Source of the DNA: Persephonella sp. IF05-L8
GTDB lineage: Bacteria > Aquificota > Aquificia > Aquificales > Hydrogenothermaceae
DNA: 64,000 nucleotides
NCBI RefSeq assembly: GCF_000703045.1
Contig: NZ_JNLJ01000001.1
Location: 496,001 to 560,000, forward strand
Direction of reading: 5' to 3'
Within the stretch, counting starts at the first letter, position 1, and each line of letters begins with the position of its first letter. Made by a program: the position numbers and the translations under genes. Shown here piece after piece: positions 26,669-30,393 of this stretch. The notes beneath the pieces were generated by a model. It had not been told where the DNA came from and did no database searches. It saw nothing but the letters and a program-made list of their open reading frames with translations.

Positions 26669-27436
26669 TTGACTATTGTAGAAAGTATAATTCTGGGTAT
26701 TGTTGAAGGTCTCACAGAATTTTTGCCTATATCCTCAACAGGACATTTGATACTGGTATCCCATCTACTTGGAATAAAACAAACAGATGCCCACAAAACA
26801 TTTGAGGTAGCAATTCAGCTTGGTTCAATTCTTGCAGTAGTTTTTTTATATAAAGACAGGCTTTTTAAAGATATTCAGCTATGGAAGAAACTGATTGTTG
26901 CATTTATCCCAACAGGTGTTCTGGGATTTTTACTTTATAAACTAATCAAATCCCTTTTCAGTCCTTATATTGTTTCTATAATGCTTATCGTTGGAGGGAT
27001 TATATTCCTTGTCATTGAATATTTACATAGAAATAAGGAATACCCTATAAAATCCCTTGATGATGTATCATATCCAAAGGCATTTTTAATTGGAGTTTTT
27101 CAGTCATTTGCAATGGTTCCAGGAACATCCCGTTCAGGAGCTTCTATTATAGGTGGTTTGCTTTTAGGCTTAGACCGTAAAGTTGCAGCAGAATTTTCGT
27201 TTCTGCTGGCAGTTCCTACAATGTTTGTGGCAACAGGATATGATGTGTATAAAAATTATCAGGTTTTTCAGCTGGATAACTGGATAACACTTATAACAGG
27301 TTTTATAACAGCCTTTATATTTGCCCTTATCTCTATCAAACTTCTGCTTGGATTTATAAAAAATCACACATTTATTCCTTTTGGGATTTATAGAATAATA
27401 CTGGGAATAATTTTTCTGTTTGTCGTTCTAAATTAG
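26669..27436 (+). CDS. uppP: Undecaprenyl-diphosphatase
   Basis: A 255-residue, multi-helix membrane enzyme that recycles the lipid carrier for peptidoglycan and O-antigen synthesis. Active-site signatures: GIVEGLTEFLPISSTGHLIL (first motif) and QSFAMVPGTSRSGASIIGG (second motif). It starts with TTG at 26669 behind AAAAGGGGA; this gives the expected family N-terminus. Confidence 0.95.
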   Translation: MTIVESIILGIVEGLTEFLPISSTGHLILVSHLLGIKQTDAHKTFEVAIQLGSILAVVFLYKDRLFKDIQLWKKLIVAFIPTGVLGFLLYKLIKSLFSPYIVSIMLIVGGIIFLVIEYLHRNKEYPIKSLDDVSYPKAFLIGVFQSFAMVPGTSRSGASIIGGLLLGLDRKVAAEFSFLLAVPTMFVATGYDVYKNYQVFQLDNWITLITGFITAFIFALISIKLLLGFIKNHTFIPFGIYRIILGIIFLFVVLN

Positions 27437-27480
27437 TTGATTTAGGTCAATGACTTTTTACCAAATTCTATTTTTAGAAT
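27437..27480 (+). promoter_or_regulatory. FNR/DNR-type box and -10 element upstream of the heme-copper operon
   Basis: TTGATTTAGGTCAA at 27437-27450 matches the CRP/FNR-family consensus TTGAT-N4-ATCAA at 9 of 10 fixed positions. TAGAAT at 27475-27480 is a good -10 box; a start near 27487 places the box centre at about -43, the usual activating position. This implies anaerobic or NO-responsive activation of the operon that follows. Confidence 0.7.
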
Positions 27481-27554
27481 TGCTATCAAATATCAATATA
27501 TAACATATCCACCCATCTGCAGGTCTCACTACTTTCTTCTGGGGGAGGTTTGCT

Positions 27555-28145
27555 ATGACAACTTCAGCTGAGGTATTATTTGCCCTTAAAGTAGTCTATA
27601 CCATTTATGCTATTTCTATTATGTCTCTGGTCGGGTGGTTTGCCTATCGGGTAACTAAAAAACCCAATTCATACAAGACCTGGTTAACTCCAAAAGTATT
27701 TTATACTTACCTTGCAATACTTGTATTGATAGGAGTTGGTATTCACATCCTGACCTACAACAAGATACCCTGGGTAGCGTGGGAGTTAAAAAAGCATAAA
27801 ATTCCTGCTGACAGAGAAATTCATATTGTTATGAAAAATCAGAAGTTTATTTTTCCTGAAGAAACTCCTATCACTATTAAATGTGGTGAGGTAGTTAAAT
27901 TCAACGTTGTTAGCGAAGATTTAACTTATGGATTTGGACTTTTCAGACCTGACCATTCCATGGTTTTTCAAATGCAGGTTGTTCCTGGACATAATAATGA
28001 ACTTTTGTGGCAGTTTCATGAAGATGGAACTTTTTATGTGCTAAGCACAGAATACTCAGGACCAAAAGGAGCCAGAATGAAAGTTCCTAATGCGTTTAAA
28101 GTGGAGGGATGCAATAAAAAGCTTTCTATGGAGGGGAAAAAATGA
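27555..28145 (+). CDS. Heme-copper oxidoreductase subunit II lacking the CuA site
   Basis: A 196-residue protein with two N-terminal transmembrane helices (residues about 8-30 and 47-66) and a periplasmic cupredoxin domain of the ba3 subunit II type. The segment aligned to the CuA loop CNQYCGLGHQNM reads STEYSGPKGARM (residues 164-175): both Cys are Ser, the His is Gly, and only the Met remains. The upstream His ligand (DVIHGF in ba3) is Tyr125 (TYGFGLF). So no CuA centre can form; electrons must come from quinol or through another route. The start has GGGGGAGG upstream. It overlaps subunit I by 4 bp. Confidence 0.85.
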   Translation: MTTSAEVLFALKVVYTIYAISIMSLVGWFAYRVTKKPNSYKTWLTPKVFYTYLAILVLIGVGIHILTYNKIPWVAWELKKHKIPADREIHIVMKNQKFIFPEETPITIKCGEVVKFNVVSEDLTYGFGLFRPDHSMVFQMQVVPGHNNELLWQFHEDGTFYVLSTEYSGPKGARMKVPNAFKVEGCNKKLSMEGKK

Positions 28146-29803
28146 ACATAAAAGATATTCTGATTAATGGAAACAAGGGAGGTCTAGATTACGAAGGGCT
28201 TAGCCCACTACAAAAGATAACCCTAAGATTTGTAGTTGTAGGTCTTATTTTTTACGGAGTTGCTGCCATTGAAGGAATGCTGATGAGAGGACAGGAGATA
28301 ACACCCCTTCCTTTTATTGATGACAGCCACTTTTTTGCTATTATGACAGTTCATCCAATAGTGGGAATTTTTGGTTCTACTTATCTTCTTGTTTTTGGAG
28401 CATTTTTGTTTCTTGTTCCTTATCTAATGAAAAAACCCATTTTTAGTATTAAACTTGCCAATTTTACATGGATAATAATGGCGGTTGGAACCGTATTAGT
28501 CTGGCTATCTGGTTTTATATATCATTATGCACCTCTATATACAATATACTGGCCTCTACCTGTTGATTTTACACAGTTTAATGTTGTCGGTGCAGTTATG
28601 TTTGTTGTTGGTATCGCTTTTATTATGATAGGAACACTGGCATTTATAGTTAACATATACGGAACGGTGTTTTACACACCAAAAGGACAGAAAAAACAGC
28701 CTATAAAACCTCTGCTTATGAGTGCGTTCGGAATAGATGGTTTCCTTAATATAGTAAACAAAATTAGAGGGAAAGAGCCTTACGTAAAAGAGCCTCCACT
28801 CTCACTGCCTATTGTTGCCATTTTCAGGGGTACTGTTGATACATTTTTAGATGCTCTGGTGATACTGGGGGCAGGTCTTCTGATACTATTTTTTATTGGA
28901 AACCAAGTTTTTCAGTGGGGATTACACTACCACAGTGTAGACTCACTCCTTTATAAAAATATTTTCTGGTGGGGATTAGACCTTATAGCAGATGGACTTG
29001 TTCTGATATATGTTGCAGGGACATGGTATCTGCTTGCAATGCTCATAACAGGAAGAAACCTTTTTATGCAAAATATAGCCAGAGCTGCACTTCTTCTTGA
29101 ACTGATAGTTTCATGGGCTGTATGGAGCCACCATCTTCTTTCAGACCAACCTCAGCCTGAGATAATGAAACTGGCATCAGGCGAGATGATAACAGCCTTT
29201 GAGCTTATAACACAGGGTCTTGCATTTTTTATTACCCTAACAACACTATGGCTTGCAAGACCCCTTAAAATGACAAATGAACTGAAATTTTTACTTGGTG
29301 GACTTCTTGGATTTGCCCTTGCAGTTCCTGCAGGAATAATACAGGCTGACCTTGGAATGAACAGGATACTCCACAATACCCAGTGGGTAGCAGGAGCTCA
29401 CTTCCATGTTGCGATACTTGTAGGTCTAACAATGACCCTTTACAGCGCCATATACATATTATTCCCTATCCTGACAAATAACTCTGTAAAACTATTTAGT
29501 CAGAAGCTTGCAAACTGGCATTTCTGGCTTCACCTTCTTGGAGGAATAGGAATGGGAGCATTTATGGGAATGGCAGGGATTGATGGTATGCTCAGAAGAC
29601 ATGTTTACACTGAAGGTGAATTTTTAGGTTATATGATACTGGCAGGTATCTGTGGTGCTATGCTTGTAGCTGCATGGGTAATCTTCATGTTTAATATAAT
29701 CGCCACAATAGGACTAAAAGGCTTAATAGGTATATTCAAACCATCAAAACTTCAAAAAGATATTATTGTTCCAGAAACAGCAGCAGCAGTCCAAAAGGGG
29801 TAA
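28142..29803 (+). CDS. Heme-copper oxidoreductase subunit I, NO-reductase-like (B-family related)
   Basis: A 553-residue protein with about 13 membrane helices. Heme ligands are kept: His71 (TVHPIVGIFGS), and His420 and His422 (VAGAHFHVA). The CuB pair His330-His331 is present (AVWSHHLLS). The third CuB ligand, normally the His of HPxxY, is Asp280 in FWWGLDLIADG, and the cross-linked Tyr position is Asp284. Without that Tyr, normal O2 reduction is unlikely. This pattern points to a nitric oxide reductase-like member, possibly the group I recall being called gNOR. Automatic annotation would probably say cytochrome c oxidase. Confidence 0.82.
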   Translation: MNIKDILINGNKGGLDYEGLSPLQKITLRFVVVGLIFYGVAAIEGMLMRGQEITPLPFIDDSHFFAIMTVHPIVGIFGSTYLLVFGAFLFLVPYLMKKPIFSIKLANFTWIIMAVGTVLVWLSGFIYHYAPLYTIYWPLPVDFTQFNVVGAVMFVVGIAFIMIGTLAFIVNIYGTVFYTPKGQKKQPIKPLLMSAFGIDGFLNIVNKIRGKEPYVKEPPLSLPIVAIFRGTVDTFLDALVILGAGLLILFFIGNQVFQWGLHYHSVDSLLYKNIFWWGLDLIADGLVLIYVAGTWYLLAMLITGRNLFMQNIARAALLLELIVSWAVWSHHLLSDQPQPEIMKLASGEMITAFELITQGLAFFITLTTLWLARPLKMTNELKFLLGGLLGFALAVPAGIIQADLGMNRILHNTQWVAGAHFHVAILVGLTMTLYSAIYILFPILTNNSVKLFSQKLANWHFWLHLLGGIGMGAFMGMAGIDGMLRRHVYTEGEFLGYMILAGICGAMLVAAWVIFMFNIIATIGLKGLIGIFKPSKLQKDIIVPETAAAVQKG

Positions 29804-29805
29804 CA

Positions 29806-30393
29806 ATGTTAGATTTGAAAAAGGTTGCAAAACAGATAAAAGAAGATGGACTGTATACTTTTATTTACAATGAAATGAAAGAAATAACAGGAAAAGGAGA
29901 ACTATCCGAGGAGGAAGTTCTCCATCTTCTCACTAAAGAACCAAAATTTCTTCAAGACTACAAAACCCTGAACACCCAGAGTGAAATAAGTAATATTCAG
30001 ATTGCCTATCAGGAGATTTACGATGATGACCCTCCTGAATGTAAAAAATTAAAACAAAAAATAAATGAATACAGGGAAGAATTGATAAGATTGGAACCTT
30101 TTGAAAACAAACCTGATAACATGCTTTATGCTCTATGGATAGGTTCAGCTGTTATATTTCTCATATTTGTTATACATAACCTTGTGGTTCTCTATACATT
30201 CTGGTATGAAAAATACCCAGCAGCTGTATATGCATCTTACATTGTTGTAATTATCTTAGGTTATCTATATTACCGAAAACGAATACAACAACATTACCTT
30301 AATCATACTAAATTCAAAAATATTGAAGAAAAGGTAAAGCTTCTAATAGAAACAGGTAAAAAGACCAAATGCTTAAAAAAAATTTATATATAA
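29806..30393 (+). CDS. Membrane protein of the heme-copper operon, unknown family
   Basis: A 195-residue protein starting three bases after subunit I. The N-terminal 105 residues are charged and helical (ELSEEEVLHLLTKEPKFLQD), with a single Cys in DDPPECKKLK. Two transmembrane helices follow (ALWIGSAVIFLIFVIHNLVV and AAVYASYIVVIILGYLYY), then a basic tail ending KKTKCLKKIYI. There is no obvious heme- or copper-binding motif, though a His lies in the first helix. It is likely an accessory or third subunit. I do not recognise the family. Confidence 0.6.
   Translation: MLDLKKVAKQIKEDGLYTFIYNEMKEITGKGELSEEEVLHLLTKEPKFLQDYKTLNTQSEISNIQIAYQEIYDDDPPECKKLKQKINEYREELIRLEPFENKPDNMLYALWIGSAVIFLIFVIHNLVVLYTFWYEKYPAAVYASYIVVIILGYLYYRKRIQQHYLNHTKFKNIEEKVKLLIETGKKTKCLKKIYI

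Follow-up and report, generated by a model that had tools for sequence, protein, structure and literature searches.

A predicted DNR/Nss-type operator at the class II position upstream of a gNOR operon in Persephonella

Among the closest described counterparts of the site analysed here is the Nss regulon of the Campylobacterota, represented by NssA, NssB and NssC of Wolinella succinogenes and by the sites of Nitrosophilus labii, in which TTGA-N6-TCAA lies at nap, nor and nos promoters, as it does in the present genome. The Nss regulators of Wolinella respond to nitrate, NO and N2O (review PMC6682613), and in N. labii the sequence begins 48–49 bp before the starts of napA, nor and nosB that were predicted from RNA-seq (PMC11539149). 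The DNR and HcpR motifs belong to the same class (PMC1274295). In the DNR regulon of Pseudomonas and the beta-proteobacteria a box near TTGATnnnnATCAA serves nir, nor and nos targets and is read by a regulator without Fe-S cysteines, while HcpR1 of the delta-proteobacteria has the motif TTGACnnnnGTCAA and hcp as its known core target (PMC1274295). On the enzyme side, an aspartate at the position of the cross-linked tyrosine is the mark of gNOR, listed in a published table for Sulfurimonas, Sulfurovum and Persephonella (PMC8756737). A search of the open-access literature found no paper on gNOR regulation in Aquificota and none on Persephonella together with FNR and a transcriptional regulator.

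The window analysed, a 64-kb stretch (64,000 nucleotides) of the Persephonella sp. IF05-L8 genome, contains the sequence TTGATTTAGGTCAA at positions 27437..27450 (no strand assigned), directly after the uppP stop codon (27434–27436). It agrees with TTGAT-N4-ATCAA in 9 of 10 half-site positions, exactly as the original prediction had read it, and is annotated as a putative CRP/FNR operator of the DNR/Nss type from its sequence, its conservation and the presence of the same box at other promoters. One-mismatch matches to the pattern were fewer in the window than expected from shuffled sequence (3 against 8.35), so that the box is not credible on sequence alone and owes its significance to its position, its regulon membership and its conservation across species. 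Such numbers would suit a chance palindrome, a 9/10 intergenic match being meaningless in an AT-rich genome (33% GC), but the box was kept at one place in 11/11 Aquificota copies of the operon, with all 8 core bases (TTGA/TCAA) invariant and the 4-base spacer free to vary (48% identity to the majority base, compared with 49% for the flank). It was retained with uppP as the upstream gene in 2 of these 11 genomes and with a different gene in the other 9, and it is also present at most Campylobacterota gNOR loci. This conservation rules out a chance match with virtually no residual doubt, and the box is almost certainly a real operator, which a nitrogen-oxide-responsive regulator of the CRP/FNR family would bind; as a short site it is open to testing in vitro.

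The same conservation was seen at other loci of the relatives for which the 5' flank was covered, a perfect box lying upstream of 12/12 nosZ and 11/11 napA loci. In nearly all relatives the perfect nosZ box is accompanied by a second, one-mismatch box, TTAAY-N4-RTCAA, exactly 17 bp upstream (for example L106:951-981), a pairing that suggests tandem dimers.

The operator of class II CRP/FNR promoters is centred at approximately −41.5, the position that results from 22 bp between the box and the −10 element. Exactly 22 bp after the box, 9 of the 11 Aquificota orthologues carry a good −10 hexamer (TATART, TATAAT, TATACT or TAAACT), and with a −10 matrix this distance scored highest in four sets of promoters (gNOR of Aquificota, gNOR of Campylobacterota, nosZ and nap), each of which consists of related orthologous sequences, making the shuffle p values optimistic. 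For the 12 promoters of the window's genome alone the 22-bp spacing was second best and only suggestive (shuffle p 0.07). In the window itself this canonical position is occupied by TTTAGA (27473..27478, + strand), a poor hexamer that aligns with the TATART of relatives, and a better hexamer, TAGAAT (27475..27480, + strand), starts 2 bp further on, 24 bp after the box. At 24 bp the sister genome, which is the closest relative that also has uppP upstream, reads TAAAAT; in this uppP-upstream group the predicted promoter would be either a weak one at the canonical spacing or one displaced by 2 bp. TAGAAT had been the −10 of the original prediction, and the box is indeed centred about 43 bp upstream of the start derived from it. 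The accompanying assignment of class II geometry is upheld by the best spacing in the four sets, with the amendment that the canonical −10 of the relatives lies 2 bp nearer to the box than TAGAAT, which moves the centre from about −43 to −41.5.

The geometry also bears on the sign of regulation. A regulator that blocks the promoter instead of activating it would have a precedent in N. labii, where a Crp/Fnr gene correlates negatively with nosZ and repression was inferred (PMC11539149); the spacing observed here is, however, that of a class II activator, and in the gNOR promoters the box takes the place of the −35 element, which leaves repression very unlikely.

The first gene of the downstream operon is preceded by the ribosome-binding site GGGGGAGG (27541..27548, + strand), which is similarly G-rich in orthologues, and encodes gNOR subunit II (27555..28145, + strand), a CoxB-like cupredoxin identified through a partial, weak CoxB match. 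Where CuA proteins carry two cysteines and a histidine, this subunit has the conserved motif STEYSGPKGARM; it therefore lacks CuA, and electrons must enter gNOR by another way. The same loss (STEYSGPKGxxM) was observed in every gNOR relative examined that has subunit II. Subunit I (28142..29803, + strand) is a member of the heme-copper oxidase family with a COX1 Pfam match. Alignment with the ba3 oxidase places Asp280 at the CuB-ligand histidine of helix VI and Asp284 at the cross-linked tyrosine, with HH330/331 and the helix X histidines retained, and both aspartates are invariant in every gNOR relative whose sequence includes the site. The third gene (29806..30393, + strand) encodes a membrane protein of 195 aa that matched no Pfam family and follows gNOR only in Aquificota and a Persephonella-like group of Nitratiruptor. 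The operon, first described as NOR-like, appears to encode a NO reductase of the gNOR type, the enzyme described for Sulfurimonas, Sulfurovum and Persephonella (PMC8756737); the aspartate and the genera are the same and the parts tested showed no difference.

The genome contains 17 exact matches to TTGAY-N4-RTCAA (TTGAYNNNNRTCAA), of which 14 lie outside open reading frames, compared with 2 of 12 for a reversed-pattern control (Fisher p 0.0007). The boxes lie at gNOR, at napA, at nosZ with its cytochrome c (divergent from the CRP/FNR regulator R3), at a DUF2249/COX1-like operon (divergent from the regulator R2) and at a NorB-like gene beside nirS. Further targets are multihaem cytochromes, a rhodanese, nrdD-nrdG and a gene with a Rieske/cytochrome b (bc1-type) operon downstream of it, the last two named from their sequences. 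The original prediction had singled out nap, nir and nos as places to look for the same box, and it was present upstream of nap, nos, the NorB-like gene of the nir cluster and a regulator gene, as occurrences of the site. Since the nap-nir cluster also encodes NirS-type proteins, the cell can be expected to produce NO. While gNOR is assigned as a NO reductase from its sequence, the operator that it has in common with nap, nos and the NorB-like gene of the nir cluster is independent evidence, favouring a role of this divergent heme-copper enzyme in denitrification over oxygen respiration and supporting the anaerobic or NO-linked use first proposed for it. The TTGA-N6-TCAA class at nap, nor and nos was already known; the site in Aquificota, before gNOR, is new and would carry the Nss-type regulon beyond the Campylobacterota into a deep-branching phylum. 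The HcpR1 motif also fits several of the boxes, but these differ from the hcp site of that regulator in standing at denitrification genes.

Three box-bearing loci of this genome can be described in more detail. The DUF2249 operon divergent from R2 (L041:6070-7924; G000:C1:924069-925923) continues with a 419-aa COX1-like protein and a DUF59-like gene, and the 419-aa protein is a candidate for a further heme-copper-like member of the denitrification regulon. Near nos, a single intergenic region contains three boxes (L039:11727-11804; G000:C1:329226-329303) between a SCO1-like/copper-chaperone-like pair and a gene for a 684-aa outer-membrane receptor-like protein, possibly for copper uptake for NosZ. 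A V4R-domain protein with an MsvR-like C-terminus has a box approximately 60 bp upstream (L036:3537-4031; G000:C1:61536-62030) and is a possible additional sensor.

Three CRP/FNR proteins were found in the genome. R2 (G000:C1:923255-923884), beside the nap cluster, and R3 (C1:320742-321371), next to nosZ, have ETxSR recognition helices (ITPETFSRILKK and VSPETLSRTLKE) and contain no cysteine and two cysteines, respectively; R1 (C1:1164436) has the helix ETAIR and one cysteine. R1 is disfavoured as the cognate regulator by its helix and by its presence in relatives without nosZ or nirS (G016, G018 and G023), where R2 was not seen. A fourth helix-turn-helix match (C1:313081) was DeoR-like rather than CRP/FNR and had no box nearby. 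The genome thus encodes CRP/FNR proteins with an E-x-x-S-R helix of the FNR/DNR type, and R2 and R3 combine this helix with the lack of Fe-S cysteines that characterises DNR and Nss regulators. Of the earlier label, the DNR half agrees with both helix and box, whereas the FNR half is unlikely, since the four-cysteine 4Fe-4S signature occurs in none of the three proteins. An oxygen-sensing FNR that activates gNOR simply on anaerobiosis would fit the box and the boxes at nrdD and the bc1-type operon, since such genes are commonly regulated by anaerobiosis or redox state; it is highly improbable because all three candidates are devoid of the cysteine set.

R2 is the best candidate regulator of the box. 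Its matches in a library of solved structures include DNR, and its divergent promoter carries a box in most relatives. Nss regulators have the same DNR-type DNA-binding domain, and R2 has orthologues in Campylobacterota, through which it is linked to that regulon, rather than through identity to NssA, NssB or NssC; the host phylum and the gNOR target also differ. Compared with the DNR regulon, the half-site is TTGAY with frequent C, the overall identity is low and the phylum is another one. The site may instead be read by R3, or by both proteins in response to different signals. R3 shares the ETxSR helix with R2 and has a box in its own divergent region, the denitrifying relatives examined encode both proteins, and NssA, NssB and NssC of Wolinella have targets in common. 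Against R3 alone, the box-bearing Campylobacterota have R2 orthologues (37–52%), and their best matches to R3 are the same proteins at only 33–37%. This leaves R3, or both, a sizeable though lesser chance, and the choice of R2 is one that we infer.

Taken together, the sequence comparisons above make it highly probable that a DNR/Nss-type activator of the CRP/FNR superfamily uses the box as its operator and acts in class II fashion on the three-gene gNOR operon. A regulator dimer would bind TTGAT-TTAG-GTCAA, overlapping the −35 region (centre near −41.5, or −43.5 for a −10 at TAGAAT), and recruit RNA polymerase to switch the operon on. Further sites of action of this regulator, or of the R2/R3 pair, would be nap, nos, the NorB-like operon in the nir cluster and probably the promoter region of the regulator itself, so that NO reductase would be produced together with the enzymes that generate NO. 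The signal would be an N-oxide such as nitrate or NO, sensed probably when oxygen is low.

When genome contigs were scanned, the best-matching named record was a Persephonella MAG (100% over subunit I), and relatives of gNOR were located in Campylobacterota, Bacteroidota and Ignavibacteriota as well as in a single MAG of the Woeseiaceae. In Campylobacterota a perfect box lies approximately 660 bp before subunit I at 10 of 15 loci, and 3 more have a one-mismatch box in the corresponding position. Among the Bacteroidota and Ignavibacteriota loci scanned, none had a perfect box before gNOR. Of the 11 Campylobacterota genomes tested, 8 encode an R2 orthologue (37–52%); matches to R2 in Bacteroidota and Ignavibacteriota reached only 32%. 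Three Campylobacterota MAGs (G062, G063 and G068) have a box or near-box with no close R2 orthologue seen, which may reflect MAG incompleteness. In the subunit I tree one group of Nitratiruptor joins the Persephonella proteins (approximately 82% identity) and is only 62–70% identical to the other Campylobacterota. The simplest reading is that the gNOR operon was transferred between the phyla, in either direction, with its operator kept. That operon and operator moved between Campylobacterota and Aquificota as a ready-wired unit, readable by orthologous Nss-type regulators in both, is an evenly balanced proposition; if true, regulation would have moved between phyla, and not only the enzyme.
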